A DNA stretch of 42,478 nucleotides from Flavobacteriales bacterium (lineage in GTDB: Bacteria > Bacteroidota > Bacteroidia > Flavobacteriales > Schleiferiaceae): positions 1-42,478 of the forward strand of contig JAAZVU010000002.1 in assembly GCA_018623275.1 (NCBI GenBank), in the 5' to 3' direction. A program made the position numbers and the translations under genes. Below the pieces are notes generated by a model. It saw only the letters and a list, made by a program, of their open reading frames with translations, was not told where the DNA came from and searched no databases. Shown in pieces: positions 3,230 through 35,968 of the stretch (the stretch's first letter is position 1; each line of letters starts with the position of its first letter).

Positions 3230-6200
3230 ATGCGCTTACGCTTTTTGTGGGCAATGTTATTGCCACTAGGCCTTTTCGGCCAAACTACTATCCTGAACAT
3301 GCCTATTGATGGCTCAACGGACACCACGACAGAATGTTCTGGGATTTTAGTTGACGGCGGAGGTATCAATGGAAACTACACCGCTTACAACAACGGCTAT
3401 GTAATTATTGATCCGCCTGGAAACGATACGGTAACATTGACATTCACTACCTGGAGTTTGTATCACTCAAGCGATTTTATTCAGGTTTATGATGGAGTCG
3501 GGACATCTTCGACTTATCTGGGATATTATTCTTCTACTTCAACGCCAACTACCATCACTGCTCCTTCAGGCGCATTGACCATTAGATTTTACACCAATTA
3601 TTGGGGACATTCGGCAGGGTTTGTAGCGAATTGGTCGACTTCTGGGACCACCGCGCCAACGGCAAATTTCACGTACGCGGCCCAGAGCCAGAATTATAAT
3701 ACCCCAATCCAATTCGTGAACACCTCTTCAAATGGGGGTTCTTCTTTTTGGGATTTCGGGGATGGCAGTACTAGCACGGCGCAGAATCCTACGCACAATT
3801 ACACTTCTTCAGGTACGCAGACCATTACCTTGATCGAGTCAAATTGTAATTCTTCGGATACTATCACTTCGACCATCACCATTTCGAATGGTCCTGATAT
3901 TCAATCGTACGACGATACAATCAATATGACGGTAGCATGTAACACCATTGCAACAGAATATTGGACACTATCAAATGGCACAGGTGCAGGGCCGCTTACT
4001 TTGGATGTCGAGGTGTATGATACGGCTGTGTCGGAACACATACATTTTGATAATGATACGGAAGGCGCATTTATGTCGTCTGGTTATGCAACTATCACAA
4101 GGACTACTTCGGCGGCTCAGGGGTCTCATGCTCTGAGTGTAACAAGTGCTTCGTCTTCAGAGGTAATGACCATTCCAGTAGCTGGTGCTGGCCCGGGATT
4201 TCAACCAACATATTTTGCTTATCGAACCAAAGCTTCTACCTCGTCTTATAGAGCTTGTAAATTCCAAATGGCCAGTGATAACACTTATGCCCCTTCTATT
4301 CTTGGATATACTTTCTGGTATTCTGACGGTAGATTAGGGATTAGACGCAGAACCCTGAGCGGTTCTTTGGGATTTGAGTATATCACTAATAGTCTCGGTA
4401 ACTGGGCGCTTATTGAATACAAGAATATTGACTGGGCTAATGAGACGTTTGATTTATACCTGGACGGTACGTATCACAATTCATATAAGTTCTTGAATCC
4501 TACGACAAACGTCAATGCCAACTATGCGAGCTATTTAAGGCTCGTCAATGATTATTCATCCGATTTAGTATATCTGGATGATATTAAAATTGGTTTTGGT
4601 TCCAATAGTGCCACTCTATCCATTAGTCCGAGCTCAGCGACTGTTCTTGGTGGTAATAGCACAACGTTCAGCCTGCAATTTGACGCAACTGGTTTGACCA
4701 GTGGCCAGTATTACTCCAGTGTAGTTGTTTCTTCGAACGATACGACCATTAATAATGATACTATACCAGTAATAGCCACGGTTGAAGGTAGCTATGAATT
4801 CAACACATTATCGGATACCCTAGATTTTGGCAATGTTGCCTCAGGTAAGCTTTATAATGACTCCATGATGGTATTGAATACCGGTTGTGCTGATCTTCAA
4901 GTAGACTCATTGGTAGAGGCGAGTACGGATTTTATGGCTTCTATGAATTCTATTTCAGATGGTGATACTGGGTATGTATATGCCCAATTCACTGCCCCGT
5001 CTGCAGGAACCTATATAGATAGCTTTATAGTATATACTCCGGACAGCAGTTTTACGAGATACTTTAAAGCATATGCCTTTGATGCACCTTCGATAGCCTT
5101 GGATTCAACGGTCTTCAACCTTTCTGTGAATGGCTGTCCGGATACTGTCGATGTATCTTATTGGATTTATAATAACGGTCAGCAATCTTTGACTTTTGAA
5201 AATGAAGGTGTGCCCACAGTAGCACCTCCGGCTTGTCCTTTTACCATCCAACTCACGGATTCTTATGGTGATGGCTGGAATGGGGCTAAAGTCGATTTAA
5301 TCGATTCCGATGGCAATGTTCTCTACACGCTGGGAACCACCTTTTATTACGGTTCATTATTTAATGAGAGCGTAATGTTGTGTTCCGGAGAGACCTACCG
5401 AATAGTTGTTACAGCTACGGGTAGTTATAAGTCTGAAATCGGCCTTAATGTTATCGAGAACGGAACAACAATAGCTTCTTACTCCAATACATCTGCAACG
5501 AATTTAGGCACTCAGATGGCTCAATTTAGTGCGAATTGTGGCATACCATGTTCAAACCCTTCTACCTTGGTGTTCGATCCTACTACCGGCACTGTTGCCG
5601 CTGCTGACTCACAGTTGGTAGTGATGAAGATTTACACAGATAGCTTGATGGAAGGAACGTATCAGTATTCTGCCTATGTAAGTTCAAATGATCCTGTAGA
5701 TTCAGTAATGGATATTACCGTAAATCTGACCCTTGACGGTGTTTCTGAAACATACATCAACCGTTCGATGTGTTATGACCTAGATACCTTAGTCAAAGGC
5801 GGCACTTATGTGGATAGTGTTTTTGTTGAAAATTTAGGTTGTGACAGCTTGTACTTCAATTCTTTGTCTTCAACTGACGCCATATTTAGTGCCTCAGCAG
5901 CATATAGCGAAATAGGCGTTGGCGATAGCGGTTGGGTAATTGTGACTATTAGTCCTACAACCGTAGGAGCTATAACGGACACCGTTTTTGTAAATACTTC
6001 CGACACGACCTGGCCATTGTGTTACAACGGTTATGTAGCAGAGGCACCAAATGCTTGGGTAAACACTAACCCGATCTCTTTGTCTACGGTGAATTGTGGC
6101 GATTCAGTGGCATTCACATTCCCAATTGCTAACACGGCCTCAGGCACTAGTCTTGACTGGTCAGTAACCTCTGGCGAAGTGCTCAATGTTTTGATGGTGA

Positions 6201-8959
6201 ATTACAGCGTATATCCTGCGTTATTGACCAAATTAGACAACTACCTGGATGGTGTGTCGGACATGAATATCAAGTCAGTGACCACGCTTAGTGCTGCTGT
6301 AGCCGAGCTTGGTTGGGCCGATGTAGTGATATTCCCATCAATCACATCATCGCCTTCAGCATCAGATTACACCAACATTGAGGATGATATGGAGACGTTC
6401 ATCAACGATGGCGGTAAGATGATCATTATTGGATCAGCTTTTGTCAGTGATATACTTTCGATGGATTTTATCTCAGGATACTACTACGGTAATTACACGA
6501 ACTACACCCATTATGTGAATACAACGTTGAACCATCCGTATACGCAAGGCTTGCCTTCTAGTTTTACAGCCCAAAGTGCTGCAATGAATGCTAGAATTAC
6601 GAATACGGGTACGCAGCAACTAGTGTATTATTCTTACTATTCACACGGTTTGACGGTTAGTCCGATCGGTGATGGTGAGCTCATTTACTTTGCATACAAC
6701 TGGAATCAGGTGTATACGGAAATAGAGACTATGATGAGCAATATTCTGACCACCACTTTGTCAGATAAGTCCACCGGTTTGAACTGGATTTCCTTTGCGA
6801 ATAACCTGGGAACTACCAGTGGAGGTGATACCACCATTATAAGTGGTACTGCATACTCGGATAGTCTAGATGCTGGCGTTCATAATTTGAGCATCTCGGT
6901 TACGACCAATGACCCAACAGGCGGCACCTTTAGTATTCCTGTGACACTAACCGTTAACGGTAAAGGGGAGAGTGATCTAGATGCTGGATGTGAGGCGTGG
7001 GGCAGTTCGTTCCAAAACATGACGCACGTTCGCGATGTCGCTGTGTACAATTTGGGATGTGATACTTTGACCATCTCAAGCGTGGCTACTGGCGGATCAG
7101 ATTTCTCAGCGTCGTCTTCGAATGTCGCTATTGCCCCAGGTGATACAGGTTATGTGCCTGTGAGTCTTTATTCGTCAACCATTGGTGCTGTAAGCGATAC
7201 GCTTTCAATCTACACGGATGCAGATACGGTGTATAAGTGTTTAACTGGAACCATTGTTGGCGCATCAGATATAGCGGTAGCACCTAATCCTATAAACGTG
7301 ACGGTGAATAAGTGTAACAGCTTTACTACAGTGCCATACACTATTACGAATAATGGCTCTGCATCGCTCACTTACGATGTCAGTGTTGCAGAGGTGTATG
7401 ATAGTGCTTATACTCAAACTTGGTTGTATCCAGCACCGAATTACTCCAACCAGTTGACCTTCTCTTTTAACAACATCATCGATTCTGATACGCTGTTCTA
7501 CGAGATCATTCTCAATGGTGCTTACAGCAACACGAATCAGTACTATTACCTTTATTTGAACAACAGTTATATTCAGACTTTTTACGATAATAATGTTGCT
7601 GATTACACCAATGATACCATCACAGGTTTCATTACGGGCTGGCAGTTGAGTAATGCCATTACTGCCGGATACTGTGATATTCGATTGTACTCTTACAACT
7701 ACACGAGTGTGACGGGCCAAACGGCTACGGTTCGAGTGAAACAACGTAAATCAGTAACGTGGGCAGCGCCAGTAGGCTTGACTTCTGGTACATTAACTGC
7801 AGGAAACTCGGTTTCTAAATCACTGTTGGTTACGGTTACAAATCTTTCTTTAGGCACCTATAACACCAGTGTGATCTTTGAAACTAATGATCCTTCTGAT
7901 CCATTCTACAGCGTTCCGATGACGGTGAATGTGGTGAGTGAGCCGGATATGGAGCTCAGTACTGGCACACTAAACTATGGTAGCGTGTATGATACGCAGC
8001 CTAAAGTAGATTCAATCATTGTTGAAAACAATGGTTGTACTGATCTTAGCATCACCAACATCACAAGTAACAATTCGCATTTCGTTCCTGGTTGGACTAC
8101 ACAGACTATTTCGGCTGGTGGTTCTGCAATTTTGCCGGTGACCTTCACAGCAACTACACCGGGATTAGAAACAGGTATATTGACTTTTGCAAATAATGAC
8201 AGTGTCCAATTGGTCACCATGCAAGCCAACGTAGTTTTTGCACCAGTAGCAGATTACCAATACACTGTTCAAAATAGCTGTACGGGGTTAATTACGTTCT
8301 CGAATGAGAGTACCAATGGATCGCAGTACTTCTGGTCGTTTGACGATGGGACTTTCTCAGCTGCAGTAAATCCGTCTCATACGTACACGAAACCGGGCAC
8401 CTACAATGTTATGCTTGTTACCTCAAATACCGGTGGCTCTGATACGACCTACAAGACTGTCACTTTGAATGACGTATTGTACGTAGACTTTGCCTTCCCA
8501 ACATCGGTTCAAGCTGGCCAGGTTATTCAGTTCACAGATTCTTCCATGTACCCAGTGTCTTGGCAATGGTTCTTTGGTGATGGTAATAACAGTACCACAC
8601 CGAACCCGCAGCACACTTATGCAAACAAAGGGACGTACATCGTGACTTTGTTGGCTCAGAATAGCGCAGGTTGTTCTGGAAGTGAGAATCAGCAAATTGA
8701 TGTGTTGAGCGGCATTGGACTTGATGAAAGTACACCTGACGACCTTACCATTTATCCTGTGCCAACCACGGGAAGACTGACGGTTGAAACAGCTGCTGAG
8801 GTTGAGAGTATTTCGCTCTACAATATGACGGGCCAATTCATTACTGAAGTGCGCGGTCAACGAAGCTTAGACCTTAGTACGCTCCCGGCAGGTACGTACA
8901 TGCTACGAATCTCAGGAGAGACCTGGGTAGTAAACCGTAGCGTAGAGTTATTGAAATAA
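3230..8959 (+). CDS. Giant secreted multidomain protein: CUB-like domain, PKD domains, iterated Ig-like modules with inserted domains, T9SS C-terminal sorting domain
   Basis: 1909-aa ORF with signal peptide MRLRFLWAMLLPLGLFGQ; PKD motifs (FWDFGDGSTSTAQNPTHNY, YFWSFDDGTFSAAVNPSHTY, WQWFFGDGNNSTTPNPQHTY); C-terminus LTIYPVPTTGRLTVET...LPAGTYMLRISGETWVVNRSVELLK typical of T9SS type A sorting domains. Confidence 0.92.
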   Translation: MRLRFLWAMLLPLGLFGQTTILNMPIDGSTDTTTECSGILVDGGGINGNYTAYNNGYVIIDPPGNDTVTLTFTTWSLYHSSDFIQVYDGVGTSSTYLGYYSSTSTPTTITAPSGALTIRFYTNYWGHSAGFVANWSTSGTTAPTANFTYAAQSQNYNTPIQFVNTSSNGGSSFWDFGDGSTSTAQNPTHNYTSSGTQTITLIESNCNSSDTITSTITISNGPDIQSYDDTINMTVACNTIATEYWTLSNGTGAGPLTLDVEVYDTAVSEHIHFDNDTEGAFMSSGYATITRTTSAAQGSHALSVTSASSSEVMTIPVAGAGPGFQPTYFAYRTKASTSSYRACKFQMASDNTYAPSILGYTFWYSDGRLGIRRRTLSGSLGFEYITNSLGNWALIEYKNIDWANETFDLYLDGTYHNSYKFLNPTTNVNANYASYLRLVNDYSSDLVYLDDIKIGFGSNSATLSISPSSATVLGGNSTTFSLQFDATGLTSGQYYSSVVVSSNDTTINNDTIPVIATVEGSYEFNTLSDTLDFGNVASGKLYNDSMMVLNTGCADLQVDSLVEASTDFMASMNSISDGDTGYVYAQFTAPSAGTYIDSFIVYTPDSSFTRYFKAYAFDAPSIALDSTVFNLSVNGCPDTVDVSYWIYNNGQQSLTFENEGVPTVAPPACPFTIQLTDSYGDGWNGAKVDLIDSDGNVLYTLGTTFYYGSLFNESVMLCSGETYRIVVTATGSYKSEIGLNVIENGTTIASYSNTSATNLGTQMAQFSANCGIPCSNPSTLVFDPTTGTVAAADSQLVVMKIYTDSLMEGTYQYSAYVSSNDPVDSVMDITVNLTLDGVSETYINRSMCYDLDTLVKGGTYVDSVFVENLGCDSLYFNSLSSTDAIFSASAAYSEIGVGDSGWVIVTISPTTVGAITDTVFVNTSDTTWPLCYNGYVAEAPNAWVNTNPISLSTVNCGDSVAFTFPIANTASGTSLDWSVTSGEVLNVLMVNYSVYPALLTKLDNYLDGVSDMNIKSVTTLSAAVAELGWADVVIFPSITSSPSASDYTNIEDDMETFINDGGKMIIIGSAFVSDILSMDFISGYYYGNYTNYTHYVNTTLNHPYTQGLPSSFTAQSAAMNARITNTGTQQLVYYSYYSHGLTVSPIGDGELIYFAYNWNQVYTEIETMMSNILTTTLSDKSTGLNWISFANNLGTTSGGDTTIISGTAYSDSLDAGVHNLSISVTTNDPTGGTFSIPVTLTVNGKGESDLDAGCEAWGSSFQNMTHVRDVAVYNLGCDTLTISSVATGGSDFSASSSNVAIAPGDTGYVPVSLYSSTIGAVSDTLSIYTDADTVYKCLTGTIVGASDIAVAPNPINVTVNKCNSFTTVPYTITNNGSASLTYDVSVAEVYDSAYTQTWLYPAPNYSNQLTFSFNNIIDSDTLFYEIILNGAYSNTNQYYYLYLNNSYIQTFYDNNVADYTNDTITGFITGWQLSNAITAGYCDIRLYSYNYTSVTGQTATVRVKQRKSVTWAAPVGLTSGTLTAGNSVSKSLLVTVTNLSLGTYNTSVIFETNDPSDPFYSVPMTVNVVSEPDMELSTGTLNYGSVYDTQPKVDSIIVENNGCTDLSITNITSNNSHFVPGWTTQTISAGGSAILPVTFTATTPGLETGILTFANNDSVQLVTMQANVVFAPVADYQYTVQNSCTGLITFSNESTNGSQYFWSFDDGTFSAAVNPSHTYTKPGTYNVMLVTSNTGGSDTTYKTVTLNDVLYVDFAFPTSVQAGQVIQFTDSSMYPVSWQWFFGDGNNSTTPNPQHTYANKGTYIVTLLAQNSAGCSGSENQQIDVLSGIGLDESTPDDLTIYPVPTTGRLTVETAAEVESISLYNMTGQFITEVRGQRSLDLSTLPAGTYMLRISGETWVVNRSVELLK

Positions 8960-30434: not shown

Positions 30435-30869
30435 ATGAAAAACACGCCAACCAAGGAGCAAGTTTTAGAAACCATGAACCGTCTTTCGAAGGACACGCTC
30501 ATGGAGACTCTAAACATAAAATACGTGGATGCTGACCCTCTAACAGGTAAGCTAGTAGCCACAATGCCAGTAGATTCGCGTGTATACCAACCCATGCGAA
30601 TTTTGCACGGAGGTGCGACTGTAGCCCTCGCTGAAAGTGTCGGATCTGCAGCTTCTCAGATGCTGATTGACCCTGCAAAGGAAATGGCAGTAGGAGCGGA
30701 AATTTCCGCGAATCATCTCAAAAGTGCGCGCACGGGAACACTTATAGCTACCGCTGAGTGTGTTCATCATGGAAAAAGTTCTCATTTGTACCACATTCGA
30801 GTGGAAAATGAAACTGGCGATTTAATCTCCATGGTCAAGCTTTTAAACTTCGTTAAACAACGTAAATAA
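30435..30869 (+). CDS. Hotdog-fold thioesterase, PaaI/MenI-like
   Basis: MPVDSRVYQPMRILHGGATVALAESVGSAAS; first gene of the men run, stop overlaps next start (TAATG). The track start at 30237 lies inside thrS antisense, so 30435 is preferred. Confidence 0.88.
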   Translation: MKNTPTKEQVLETMNRLSKDTLMETLNIKYVDADPLTGKLVATMPVDSRVYQPMRILHGGATVALAESVGSAASQMLIDPAKEMAVGAEISANHLKSARTGTLIATAECVHHGKSSHLYHIRVENETGDLISMVKLLNFVKQRK

Positions 30870-31831
30870 TGCTCGAGGTACTACTTCGCATTCCCAACCA
30901 ACCACTCCGCAGTCTTCGCTGCGAAGAAACCTCGGCAGCTGCTGCAAATTTGGTTTTACGTGGTTTCAAGGGTGAAGTAGGCTATTACCAGAGTCTTGAT
31001 GCAGAAATAGATCCATTATTTTGGGAGACGTTTTCTGTGGAATCCAATGACGATTCTGAAGTCAAAAGTGCCTTAGAATACCAGCAGATGGTTGCAAGTG
31101 CTGTTTCTCAGATTCAGAAACATACTGTTCAAAAGGTTGTTTTAAGTCGCAAGCAGTTCTGGGATTGCCCGGGTGCGAATCCAAAATTGACTTTTGAAAG
31201 GCTGCTAGAAAATTATCCTTCGTGCACCGTTTTCGCACTAAAGCATGAGCGCTATGGCTCATGGATGGGGGCTTCTCCTGAAGTGTTGCTCGAGAGCACT
31301 GAAGAGGGCTATCGAAGTATGTCGCTAGCAGGAACGAGGTTGGAAGGCAATACCCATTGGGGTCAAAAGGAGCTGGAAGAGCAGAAATTTGTCACTAAGG
31401 AGGTTCATAAGAGTCTGAAAGAGTTCGGAGGCAAGATAACTAGAGACCAGCAGCGTACTTTTAACGCCGGACCGGTAGAGCATCTGCTGACATGGGTCAA
31501 TACGGATAATGTAGAATTGGACCCGAAAGCGGCAGCAGAAGAATTACATCCGACGCCTGCCATTTGCGGATCTCCATCAGATGCAGCTCAAGCACTAATA
31601 GGGCAATTAGAGGGTTACGACCGTTCTCTTTACGCGGGTTATTTAGGCGTATTTGAACAGCACGTGCATGCGACTGTTCTATTGAGGACGATGAAGTGGT
31701 TTTCAAATGGTGTCCAATTTTATGCCGGTGGTGGTATTACCAAAGACAGCGTACCTTTGGACGAGTGGATGGAAACCCAACACAAAATCTCTGCATTAAA
31801 GGAGTTAATTCAAATAGATGACCTCGGATAA
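30869..31831 (+). CDS. menF: Isochorismate synthase
   Basis: Chorismate-binding motifs: VQKVVLSRK, WMGASPEVLLE, MSLAGTR, VEHLLTWV, HPTPAICGSP, YAGYLGVFE, QFYAGGGITKDS. Confidence 0.93.
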   Translation: MLEVLLRIPNQPLRSLRCEETSAAAANLVLRGFKGEVGYYQSLDAEIDPLFWETFSVESNDDSEVKSALEYQQMVASAVSQIQKHTVQKVVLSRKQFWDCPGANPKLTFERLLENYPSCTVFALKHERYGSWMGASPEVLLESTEEGYRSMSLAGTRLEGNTHWGQKELEEQKFVTKEVHKSLKEFGGKITRDQQRTFNAGPVEHLLTWVNTDNVELDPKAAAEELHPTPAICGSPSDAAQALIGQLEGYDRSLYAGYLGVFEQHVHATVLLRTMKWFSNGVQFYAGGGITKDSVPLDEWMETQHKISALKELIQIDDLG

Positions 31832-33356
31832 GGCTATAGCACATTGGACCATAGATGCCCTTATACAATTGGGTATGCAGCGCCTTATTTATTCTCCCGG
31901 ATCTAGAAATACACCCTTGATCATTGCAGGGACAGGACATTCTGCTCTTGAACATCATACCGTATTGGACGAACGTAGTGCCGCTTTTCAAGCTATAGGT
32001 GCCTCTTTGATGACCGATCAAATTGTGGGTGTTTGCTGCACCTCCGGTAGTGCTTTGGCGAATTATTATCCAGCTGTTTTAGAAGCATTTTACAGCAAGA
32101 TTCCGCTTGTGCTTATTACTGCAGATCGACCCTTAGATAGAATTGGCAAAGGGGAGGGGCAAACCTGCGATCAAACGGATTTTTACGGGTCGCATATTGG
32201 ATTCTCAGCATCATTCGATGAAAGCACCACTGTGGAGGAGATTAAAGAAGTCTTCTCGCACATTCACCATAGTTTGGCCATCAAAAAAGAGCCCGTACAT
32301 ATTAATATTCATTTTGATGAACCGTTATATGGTCAGGTGGAACATGTAGAATCTGTTCGATTGCCAGAGTTTGCGCTAACCAAGAGTAAGCCAGCAGATC
32401 TTTCACCTTTGAGCAGTTGTCAGAAGGTAGCCGTCGTTTGTGGCCAATTGCGTCCTGAGGACGTTGAATTTTTCAAAACCTCCGGATTGATCTCTTCCTC
32501 CAATGCTACTTGGTTTGTCGATCCACTAAGCGGTCTGTTGGGAGCGGGAAATTGTGTGAATATTGATGAATTGGTTCATCACGAATTTGACGGGTTGCTT
32601 TCATTTGGTGGCCAGTGGATGAGCAAATTCCCAAAGTTTCATGTGCGCAAAATGAATCTTTCGGTTCATGTACATTGCGATGATCACCAAGCATGGAATG
32701 TCAGCGATTCACGGGACTTTATTTGGCATAAGGTATCTGCCAAAGAATTATCGGGTTGGTCATCCTGTAGTTTCTTGAAAATTGCTGAGAAGCCACTCAA
32801 CCTGCCAGATCTTCCATGGTCAGATGCGTTGGCTGTTCAAACCATCGTCCAGTCTTTATCCAAGGAGGATATTCTCCATTTGGGGAATAGTTCTATTCCT
32901 CGTTACATGAGCTATTTTCTGCATCAAGGCGCAGTGTATTGCAATCGAGGTGTAAGTGGTATTGACGGGAGTTTAAGCACTGCTGTCGGCGCTGCTCGAG
33001 TGCGTCCTGAGAAAAATCATGTGCTGATAATAGGGGACCAGAGTTTTCTCTACGACAGCAATGCATTGATGCATCTTCGAGAGGTAGACAATCTTCGAGT
33101 TTTCGTGATCAATAATTGTGTGGGGGAAATCTTCAATTGGCTCCCAGGTACATCACAGACTTCCAAGGCTGCCCAAGCGGTTTATTCGAACTATCAAGAA
33201 GTCGATATTGCAACCCTTGCCTTAGCATACGATTGCCGTAGTGAAGTAGCGCAGAACCTGAGTGAATTACAGAGCGCTGAAAGCACCTTGGTCGAAGTGC
33301 TCACCGTTGAAGGGAAGAATACTGAGGCCTTTGAGGCGCTCAAAAAAATGAATTGA
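31818..33356 (+). CDS. menD: 2-succinyl-5-enolpyruvyl-6-hydroxy-3-cyclohexene-1-carboxylate synthase
   Basis: YSPGSRNTPLIIA, DERSAAFQAIGASL, VCCTSGSALANYYPAVLEA; ThDP-enzyme fold. Overlaps menF by 14 nt. Confidence 0.94.
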   Translation: MTSDKAIAHWTIDALIQLGMQRLIYSPGSRNTPLIIAGTGHSALEHHTVLDERSAAFQAIGASLMTDQIVGVCCTSGSALANYYPAVLEAFYSKIPLVLITADRPLDRIGKGEGQTCDQTDFYGSHIGFSASFDESTTVEEIKEVFSHIHHSLAIKKEPVHINIHFDEPLYGQVEHVESVRLPEFALTKSKPADLSPLSSCQKVAVVCGQLRPEDVEFFKTSGLISSSNATWFVDPLSGLLGAGNCVNIDELVHHEFDGLLSFGGQWMSKFPKFHVRKMNLSVHVHCDDHQAWNVSDSRDFIWHKVSAKELSGWSSCSFLKIAEKPLNLPDLPWSDALAVQTIVQSLSKEDILHLGNSSIPRYMSYFLHQGAVYCNRGVSGIDGSLSTAVGAARVRPEKNHVLIIGDQSFLYDSNALMHLREVDNLRVFVINNCVGEIFNWLPGTSQTSKAAQAVYSNYQEVDIATLALAYDCRSEVAQNLSELQSAESTLVEVLTVEGKNTEAFEALKKMN

Positions 33357-33454
33357 TTTTCAATTATAAGTAAGTATAAAAACTTATCCGTTACCAACAT
33401 AGTGGAGTGCTTCAGGGTCTACGTTTCTTTGTTATGGAATGCAAATAGACCAAA

Positions 33455-34006
33455 ATGAAGGGACTTATTTTTCAAACGTACATCGATTTCTTGATCAAAT
33501 CTCAGGGAGAGGAACTCAAGAATTTCATTCTTCGCGACGCTGGTTCAGGCGATAGAGATTCTTACGAAGCCATGGGTACTTATCCATTCAAATCTCTTTA
33601 CGACGTAGTAGCGCAAACCCATGCACATACAGGAGATTCAGTGCCGAAAATTTTAGAAGACTACGGTTACTACTTGTTCGATATCTTAGCAGTGTCGTAC
33701 GCGAAGTACTTGGGTGAGGGAGTTGATTTGTTCGGTTTCTTGGAATCGCTTGAGGATCACGTACATGTACATGTGAACCAACAATTCCCGGACGCTTCAT
33801 TGCCGTCATTCACCTACGAGAGAATTGACGATAACAATCTGAAAATGATCTACGAAAGTGAGCGAGCAATGTCGGATTTCGGTATCGGAATGATCAAAGG
33901 GTCGGCGAAACATTTTGGAAACAAAGTGTCTATCGAAAAAGAAGATTTAACCCCTGATAATAATGGTACCGAGGTGGAGATCCGGGTGACCATTATAAAT
34001 GACTAA
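33455..34006 (+). CDS. Stand-alone H-NOX / heme NO-binding (HNOB) domain protein
   Basis: 183 aa; MKGLIFQTYIDFLIKSQGEE N-terminus, heme-ligand region LEDHVHVHVNQQFPDASLPSF (His104), YxSxR motif Y133-E-S-E-R137, MIKGSAKHFGNKVSIEKED; aligns without gaps to the recalled Thermoanaerobacter H-NOX sequence across His102-Tyr140. Confidence 0.88.
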   Translation: MKGLIFQTYIDFLIKSQGEELKNFILRDAGSGDRDSYEAMGTYPFKSLYDVVAQTHAHTGDSVPKILEDYGYYLFDILAVSYAKYLGEGVDLFGFLESLEDHVHVHVNQQFPDASLPSFTYERIDDNNLKMIYESERAMSDFGIGMIKGSAKHFGNKVSIEKEDLTPDNNGTEVEIRVTIIND

Positions 34007-34919
34007 AGAAACAGTTGCATTCAAGCATTGGGTAAAAGCGGCAAGGTTAAGAACACTGCCTCTAGCTTTTGCAGTTATCATTCTAGGCAGTGGGTTAGGC
34101 TATTTTCATATCGGCCAATTCTCTGCCTCTCTTTTTGTCCTAGCCTTACTAACGAGCTTTGCGTACCAAGTCTTGTCCAACTACGCGAATGACCTTGGAG
34201 ACGGCATTAAAGGGACGGACGAAAATAAGAAGGGCGAACAACGCGCTGTAGCTTCCGGCTTAATCACGATTTCGCAAATGCGATCAGCCACAAATGCATT
34301 TACCATACTCGCTTTAGTTTCGGGGGGTACACTAGTTTACTTGGCCTTTTTCGGGACATTCCACTTTTACATTTTCTCCATTTTGAATATTGCAGCCGTT
34401 TGGGCTGCTCGTTCCTACACATTGGGAAGCAACCCTTACGCTTATTGGGGTGGAGGGGACTTTTTCGTTTTTATCTTCTTTGGATTTGTAGGTGTGATGG
34501 GGTCTTCTGCCTTACAAACTGGTGCGTTCAATGCGATAGATGCATTGCCATCTTTAGTGGCTGGAGCCATGAGCGCTTCTGTACTAACTCTTAATAACCT
34601 AAGGGATAGGGAAGGTGATGCACTCCATGGCAAGAGAACCCTCGTCGTTCGATTCGGCGAAAAATGGGGTAGAGGGTATTTCAAAACCTTGTTAATCCTT
34701 TCTATCCTCGTTAGTCTCATCTTCTCAATACTCGCTAGTGCACTTTCTAAAGAGTATTATCCGATCATTGCACACTTAGTTTTCCAGTTTGCCTTACGAG
34801 GCCAATTCAAAAAGTTCAGTCAGGCAGGCATTCCAGAAGAATATGATGCCTTGCTTAAACCTTTGGCGCTAATGACTTTGTTGTATTGTGTACTTACATC
34901 AATCTCATTGTTTTTCTAA
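33999..34919 (+). CDS. menA: 1,4-dihydroxy-2-naphthoate polyprenyltransferase
   Basis: UbiA-family: NYANDLGDGIKGTDENKKGEQRAVASGLI, LNNLRDREGDALHGKRTLVVRFG, multiple TM segments. Overlaps the H-NOX stop by 8 nt (ATGACTAA). Confidence 0.94.
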   Translation: MTKETVAFKHWVKAARLRTLPLAFAVIILGSGLGYFHIGQFSASLFVLALLTSFAYQVLSNYANDLGDGIKGTDENKKGEQRAVASGLITISQMRSATNAFTILALVSGGTLVYLAFFGTFHFYIFSILNIAAVWAARSYTLGSNPYAYWGGGDFFVFIFFGFVGVMGSSALQTGAFNAIDALPSLVAGAMSASVLTLNNLRDREGDALHGKRTLVVRFGEKWGRGYFKTLLILSILVSLIFSILASALSKEYYPIIAHLVFQFALRGQFKKFSQAGIPEEYDALLKPLALMTLLYCVLTSISLFF

Positions 34920-35968
34920 TGGAAGCCAAATACACGTCTTACATCCTAAATTTTAAGATTCCTGGCGGCACCTCTCGTGGTGTATTAACCACCAAAGAGA
35001 GCTTCTTTATTGCCATCCACCACAAGGGAAAAATAGGTTTGGGTGAGGTAGGCGTTTTACGAGGTCTTTCCTACGACGATGTTCCAGAATTAGAATCTCA
35101 GGTTGCATGGACGTGCGAAAACATTCATCTAGGGCTAGCAGAGCTTTATGCTGCCAATAAACAATACCCGAGCATCCAATTCGCTTTAGAACAAGCATTC
35201 AGTCATCTAAAAAATGGCTTTGAGCACTTTCCATCCCCTTTTACTTCAGGGAAATCCACCCAGAATATCAATGGTCTCATTTGGATGGGGAGCTTATCCT
35301 TCATGCGCGATCAAGTAGCCAAACGTTTGGATGAAGGTTTCACCACCTTGAAAATGAAAGTAGGTGCCATTGGATGGAAGGAGGAAAAGTCCATTCTAAG
35401 CGCCTTAAGAAAGGAGTTTTCTGAAGATCAATTAGAACTTCGTGTAGATGCAAATGGTGCTTTTGAACTAGAAGAAGCCGTTGAGATCAGCAAGTATTTA
35501 CGTGATATTTCAGTCCATTCCATGGAACAACCCATTAAGGCAGGAAGAAACGAGGAACTGGCCAAGGCGGTAGAGCAGATGCATATCTCTGTGGCGCTCG
35601 ATGAGAGTCTCATTGGAATGATAGAGCGTAAACAGAAGAAAGAATTATTAGAGGCCATTAGACCACAATATATCATACTGAAGCCTTCATTCATTGGTGG
35701 CTGGAAAGGGGCTGATGAATGGATTGAGCTTGCTACAGCGCGCGATATTCAATGGTGGGCAACCTCTGCACTAGAAAGTAATGTAGGGCTAAATGCAATT
35801 GCTCAGTGGGCTTTCACGAAATCAAATCCAATTCCGCAAGGATTAGGCACAGGTAGTTTGTATACGAATAATATTGAAGGGCCTTACAGTGTAGAAGGGG
35901 GGCTACTGAAGGTGAAGAAGGATATTCTTACCGATTGGGATTTATCCTCTCTTAAATCGATCCTCTAA
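34919..35968 (+). CDS. menC: o-succinylbenzoate synthase (enolase superfamily)
   Basis: TTLKMKVGAIGWKEE, LRVDANGAFELEEA, SMEQPIKAG, VALDESLIG, ILKPSFIGG. TAATG junction with menA. Confidence 0.92.
   Translation: MEAKYTSYILNFKIPGGTSRGVLTTKESFFIAIHHKGKIGLGEVGVLRGLSYDDVPELESQVAWTCENIHLGLAELYAANKQYPSIQFALEQAFSHLKNGFEHFPSPFTSGKSTQNINGLIWMGSLSFMRDQVAKRLDEGFTTLKMKVGAIGWKEEKSILSALRKEFSEDQLELRVDANGAFELEEAVEISKYLRDISVHSMEQPIKAGRNEELAKAVEQMHISVALDESLIGMIERKQKKELLEAIRPQYIILKPSFIGGWKGADEWIELATARDIQWWATSALESNVGLNAIAQWAFTKSNPIPQGLGTGSLYTNNIEGPYSVEGGLLKVKKDILTDWDLSSLKSIL

Follow-up and report, generated by a model that had tools for sequence, protein, structure and literature searches.

A type IX-secreted protein of the Schleiferiaceae with four putatively split immunoglobulin-like domains carrying different guests

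The window analyzed here, a 42,478-nucleotide stretch from the genome of a marine member of the Schleiferiaceae, encodes a giant protein with four tandem modules of the order A-insert-B-C. Structure models indicate that in each module one PapD/HYDIN-type immunoglobulin-like (Ig) domain is split by the insert into halves, A and B, and is followed by another Ig domain, C, which is intact. Sequence comparison reveals that this slot accepts unrelated folds, with natural swaps between orthologues; the models and the orthologues together argue strongly for both the split fold and the swaps. We consider it probable that the protein is a T9SS-exported Ig stalk with guest slots in its split Ig domains, whose guests and modules are swapped by recombination, and that it likely serves as a multi-headed adhesin or glycan binder.

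Gene, genome setting and export

Family scans and structure models give the protein the order CUB-PKD-[A-insert-B-C]x4-PKD-PKD-T9SS tail (Table 1). It bears a T9SS export tag: the C-terminal sorting domain scores 34.4 bits with TIGR04183 against a curated cut-off of 23. The source genome, a draft that is 74.8% complete, encodes about 30 proteins with such tails and, on contig C9, the T9SS translocon gene SprA (TIGR04189). Named relatives of the gene are found in Schleiferiaceae/Flavobacteriales metagenome assemblies, Phaeocystidibacter and Owenweeksia, and the whole domain order is common to the orthologues in the genus and in the latter two. Pfam and NCBIfam scans found no RTX family in the protein.

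Table 1. Features of the protein and their positions in the window
Feature	Position	Strand	Basis
T9SS cargo protein, whole gene, 1,909 aa	3230..8959	+	single open frame; T9SS tail above cut-off
CUB domain, aa 59-134	3404..3631	+	PF00431
PKD domain 1, ~aa 141-216	3650..3877	+	PF18911; PDB matches
A1, putative N-terminal half of split Ig, aa 219-261	3884..4012	+	A1+B1 on one continuous PapD-like Ig
Insert 1, concanavalin A/LamG-like	4013..4612	+	model residues 49-241 match sialidase-type beta-sandwiches
B1, putative C-terminal half of split Ig, aa 462-520	4613..4789	+	repeat comparison; structure match; Ig profile
C1, intact HYDIN/VesB-type Ig, aa 521-618	4790..5083	+	4lk4 VesB Z 10.7, rmsd 2.1; profile E 1.3e-4
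A2, aa 619-658	5084..5203	+	A2+B2 on one continuous PapD-like domain
Insert 2, DSYGDGWNG domain; Reelin-B-like in orthologues	5204..5560	+	orthologue comparison; domain relatives
B2, aa 778-838	5561..5743	+	repeat comparison; structure match; joined A2+B2 vs PF22544
C2, aa 839-938	5744..6043	+	PF22544 25.2 bits, just under cut-off
A3, aa 939-979	6044..6166	+	repeat comparison; AlphaFold2 model
Insert 3, ThuA/class I GATase-like (Rossmann-type), no cysteine	6167..6781	+	model 45-246
B3, aa 1185-1245	6782..6964	+	repeat comparison; AlphaFold2 model
C3, aa 1246-1344	6965..7261	+	PF22544 above cut-off
A4, aa 1345-1386	7262..7387	+	repeat comparison; 2qsv aligned across A4+B4+C4, model 409-730
Insert 4, beta-rich domain	7388..7759	+	secondary structure in AlphaFold2 model
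B4, aa 1511-1571	7760..7942	+	repeat comparison; structure match
C4, aa 1572-1670	7943..8239	+	DUF1573, HYDIN Ig and ASH, all above cut-off
PKD domains 2 and 3	8240..8707	+	family scan; PDB matches
T9SS type A sorting domain	8750..8956	+	PF18962 / TIGR04183 above cut-off

A split and an intact Ig domain in each module

The original prediction described four modules, each with a segment A carrying a fixed cysteine, a variable insert and segments B and C. All twelve motifs quoted for these segments lie in frame where they had been placed, and the four-fold order holds, with the modules starting at residues 219, 619, 939 and 1345 (nucleotides 3884, 5084, 6044 and 7262). Since self-BLASTP of the protein returned the full-length hit only and no internal repeats, the repeats were tested by segment shuffles: every pair of B and of C segments is similar (z 7.9-16.9; 0 of 500 shuffles as good), and five of the six pairs of A segments are significant (0-2 of 500 shuffles), the exception being A1-A3.

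AlphaFold2 models of residues 939-1670 (pLDDT 80.6) and 219-938 (pLDDT 71.7) were compared with the PDB. In the models the strands of A and B flank the insert in every module. A1+B1 superposes on one PapD-like Ig domain with the insert skipped (6fqa, 100 residues, rmsd 2.1, Z 10.7), as does A2+B2 (5ghu, 101 residues, Z 11.4; 6fjy, 105 residues, rmsd 2.4), and C forms a separate HYDIN/VesB-type Ig. As A alone has only about 40 residues and only A+B together fill one Ig fold, the A/B junction is predicted to lie inside a single domain. Hence, the conserved junction had been correctly recognized as the site of the slot, but A and B would be halves of one Ig domain rather than two flanking segments. 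With a pTM of about 0.4, neither model fixes the orientation of the domains.

The top structural matches of the Ig domains are axonemal HYDIN/CFAP proteins. Likewise, models of the HYDIN/CFA65/VesB-type (ASH) Ig (PF22544; choice-of-anchor D, NF012200) match C and most joined A+B sequences. Joined A2+B2 covers positions 1-95 of the 100 of PF22544 (E 2.2e-4, below cut-off). Against the 25.5-bit cut-off of this family, C3 (28.9) and C4 (28.7) score above and C2 (25.2) and C1 (22.6) just below, while A1+B1 (22.2), A2+B2 (21.9) and A4+B4 (16.5) all fall below and A3+B3 has no match at all. The joined A3-B3-C3 unit retrieved nothing from the PDB by sequence, and HYDIN/CFAP chains and 2qsv by profile. 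The HYDIN-type and NF012200 models describe intact domains, and no model of the split form was among the hits of the profile scans. An uncharacterised protein of Porphyromonas gingivalis W83, 2qsv, aligns to A+B and C in both module 4 and module 2 if the insert is skipped, albeit with large whole-chain rmsds (12.6 and 18.5), and matches C by sequence (E 2.8e-6). Its 220 residues offer no space for a guest, making it a plausible empty chassis unit.

Each C-A unit (3884-8317) has four cysteines, of which one in C and one in the next A are present in 24/24 units of the Schleiferiaceae, some of which have lost the remaining two together. Most members from the rest of the phylum have neither of the two invariant ones. 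The cysteine of A, invariant within this family, is hardly ever found in the corresponding module of other Bacteroidota. Disulfides formed by the cysteines of the unit may staple neighbouring Ig domains together and also brace them internally.

The four guests

The inserts had been predicted to differ, and indeed share no similarity with one another (z -0.7 to 1.1 in a shuffle test). None of the four matches a Pfam family, including LamG in the case of insert 1. At the level of modelled structure, the concanavalin/LamG-like assignment of insert 1 finds support in 5mqr (Z 16.7, rmsd 2.8, 170 aligned); its best matches include 2w68, the sialic acid-binding domain of the Vibrio cholerae sialidase (Z 15.1). 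Insert 3, originally called Rossmann-like, is modelled with a ThuA/GATase-like fold (1t0b, Z 17.6, rmsd 2.9, 195 aligned); it has no cysteine, and hence no nucleophile of the class I glutamine amidotransferase kind. Insert 2 is poorly modelled (pLDDT ~35-57), and for inserts 2 and 4 profile searches against the PDB gave no credible match, a result compatible with known folds, such as the jelly-roll-like one predicted for insert 4.

Guest swaps and replacement of module 1

That the protein is a scaffold accepting cargo at the A/B junction is borne out by two slots in which orthologues differ. Slot 2 holds one Reelin-B-like family in 8/8 intact orthologues examined (G021, G017, G002, G009, G001, L057, Phaeocystidibacter and Owenweeksia; the insert of G021 matches Reelin subrepeat B with E 3.3e-18), and the DSYGDGWNG domain in the window alone. 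Slot 3 is ThuA-like in all orthologues but that of Owenweeksia, whose insert belongs to no sequence cluster and has no Pfam match. In a tree of the B-C halves, module 2 of the window groups with the other second modules of its genus (support 99/99), and module 3 of Owenweeksia with that of Phaeocystidibacter (97/95). The B-C halves are thus orthologous even where the inserts differ, which indicates that the guests changed while the chassis stayed.

Module 1 has been replaced as a whole. Genomes G021 and G017 are 96-100% identical elsewhere in the protein, but identity drops to 68% in the first PKD domain and to 28-59% in module 1, with sharp DNA breakpoints near aa 134 (the end of CUB) and aa 618 (the C1/A2 border). 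Within this block dS is saturated and dN reaches 0.60, as against a dN of 0.005-0.006 and a dS of ~0.28 outside it. G021 shares its version with G019 (99%) and G017 with G008 (88%), and the window has a third (32-35% to the others): among five close relatives there are three diverged versions, two of them each in two separate genomes. The window's slot-2 and module-1 versions are each found in one assembly. Since the module-1 halves form one clade in the B-C tree, the replacement was by another version of module 1; no closer donor was found within the genus (best 35%). Around the gene, most neighbouring genes compared over the 42 kb are 90-99% identical and in conserved order. A second variable stretch of the window comprises genes at 30869-35968, only 60-77% identical to those of G021 against the 90-99% of most neighbours, and 33455-34006, which has no counterpart in G021.

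Purifying selection acts on modules 2-4 (dN/dS ~0.02-0.08 where dS is unsaturated). Diversifying point mutation is unsupported, and these low values argue against an arms race of that kind; the protein changes by replacement.

Occurrence across the Bacteroidota

C-A units were detected at E <= 1e-8 in 91/395 Bacteroidota genomes, with some matches spanning C alone. Among the genes fetched, which were hand-chosen and biased to long frames such that counts from them give no frequency estimate, the A-to-B gap is 158-360 residues in 83/85 cases (a few entries overlap, and the gaps near 360 of one gene probably include a missed segment). Clustering by sequence at the chosen threshold sorted these inserts and those of the orthologues into 23 groups, some of which may have a fold in common. 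The families matched in a set of 81 inserts are, among others, NIDO (8), choice_anch_J (6), DUF4350 (5), DUF4394 (5), ThuA (3) and Cleaved_Adhesin (3), along with LamG and Reelin-B; a propeller is also among the phylum-wide guests, many of which match no Pfam family. Thus, the search for homologues whose A/B junction carries a different insert, which the original prediction had called for alongside modelling of the modules, was positive, with ~20 insert clusters across the phylum besides the two orthologue swaps. The same split Ig with varied inserts, some 160-310 residues long, accordingly appears, at the sequence level, to occur across the Bacteroidota. As the A-insert-B pattern marks the ends of the guest, it can serve as a rule by which candidate ligand-binding domains are located in the large surface proteins of this phylum.

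Comparison with known systems

A similar anatomy is seen in RTX adhesins such as FrhA of Vibrio cholerae, MpIBP and AhLap, where 'split' Ig-like domains thrust the ligand-binding domains away from the stalk (PMC12077191, PMC10865825); both papers cite Graham et al. 2024 on split Ig-like domains. Common to the two are a sequence-discontinuous Ig-like domain with a different folded domain inserted, which in the RTX adhesins is thought to be projected from the stalk, and Ig extenders in between. However, the RTX adhesins are type I-secreted with BIg-like Ig domains, whereas the window protein has a T9SS tail, PapD/ASH/HYDIN-type Ig domains and no RTX repeats. FrhA is split after a single first strand, the window protein after ~40 residues (three to four strands); the latter further differs in its four split domains in tandem and in the swaps between close orthologues. 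By anatomy, then, the window protein would work like RTX split domains without itself being an RTX adhesin. Our literature search found no relevant paper on split domains in Bacteroidota, and the present case would show that the principle reaches beyond RTX adhesins, to proteins secreted by the type IX route throughout a phylum.

VARTIG of the Thermococcales is likewise a large Ig protein in which recombination between relatives has replaced one region (PMC8416519). Its variable part is the C-terminal Ig domain together with variable downstream genes (PMC8416519), as against an N-terminal module and guest domains in this bacteroidotan protein.

Proposed function and alternative explanations

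We propose that the protein forms a stalk of Ig-like domains on the cell surface, to which it would be exported by the T9SS. In each module the chain would leave the first Ig domain (A+B) after about 40 residues, form the guest and return to finish the fold, with C acting as an intact Ig spacer. Because both ends of the guest leave from the same loop, it is expected to jut sideways from the stalk, by analogy with the heads on RTX split domains. A loop tolerant of unrelated folds would allow guests and whole modules to be replaced by recombination with the chassis kept; such a site may be useful in protein engineering. The most likely use is that of a multi-headed adhesin or glycan-binding protein of changeable specificity, which would bear on the question of how marine bacteria shift their targets of attachment. 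The adhesin role, ligand binding, sideways projection and selective reason are all inferred. More tentative, if quite conceivable, is the generalization that T9SS-exported split-Ig proteins throughout the Bacteroidota constitute a class with a plug-in site, in which live replacement of cargo and modules changes the specificity of surface heads by recombination.

The swaps could instead be a means of evading phages or protist grazers, or of telling self from non-self with a VARTIG-like logic, ligand binding being secondary. Three module-1 versions in five close relatives, within a conserved gene order and a sharply bounded block, speak for this, but modules 2-4 carry the mark of purifying selection (dN/dS ~0.02-0.08) rather than of a point-mutation arms race and the likeness to VARTIG is by analogy (PMC8416519); we regard it as rather unlikely. 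Less probable still is that the guests are enzymes of a surface-displayed degradative scaffold, acting for example on algal polysaccharide. The glutamine-amidotransferase/ThuA-like fold of insert 3, the resemblance of insert 1 to GH16 and sialidase-associated beta-sandwiches, and related modules behind a thermolysin-type protease in G048 all fit enzymes, while the missing nucleophile of insert 3, the sialic acid-binding domain among the matches of insert 1 and the lack of any Pfam family on the inserts speak against them.

Chimeric metagenome assembly is a very improbable source of the differences in inserts and modules, and for module 1 in particular it is an unlikely explanation. While most of the genomes are fragmented drafts, with masked or unknown stretches in G008 and G019 and out-of-frame fragments in the N-terminal part of G016, the module-1 versions recur in independent genomes (G021/G019, G017/G008), the window gene is open through every junction, the breakpoints lie at domain borders, gene order is kept over 42 kb and eight orthologues share the Reelin-B-like insert. 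Surface proteins built of Ig and PKD modules are widespread in Bacteroidota, but ordinary tandem Ig repeats joined end to end, with the A/B junction as interdomain linker, can be dismissed with near confidence, given that A has only ~40 residues, that one Ig fold is filled by A+B alone and that their strands flank the insert in all modelled modules.

Related sequences in other contexts

The N-terminal portion of the G016 gene (L055:6900-9400) consists of short pieces in shifting frames, reflecting either decay or sequencing errors. In a 2,568-residue protein of G048 (L041:2067-9770), a thermolysin M4 protease is joined to PKD and CUB domains and to split-Ig modules; the latter hold members of the slot 1-3 insert clusters in a different order (ThuA-like, LamG-like, Reelin-B), and the tree does not place their chassis. 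The DSYGDGWNG family is also represented in a second large protein of the source genome (contig C86, L042:3572-7123), where three such domains stand end to end, outside split Ig domains; the C-terminus of its relatives in the genus resembles a T9SS tail. Relatives of the domain are also encoded by 63 IMG/VR loci, and on one viral-collection contig (L060:746-1117) it apparently lies inside a repeat of a propeller-like protein.
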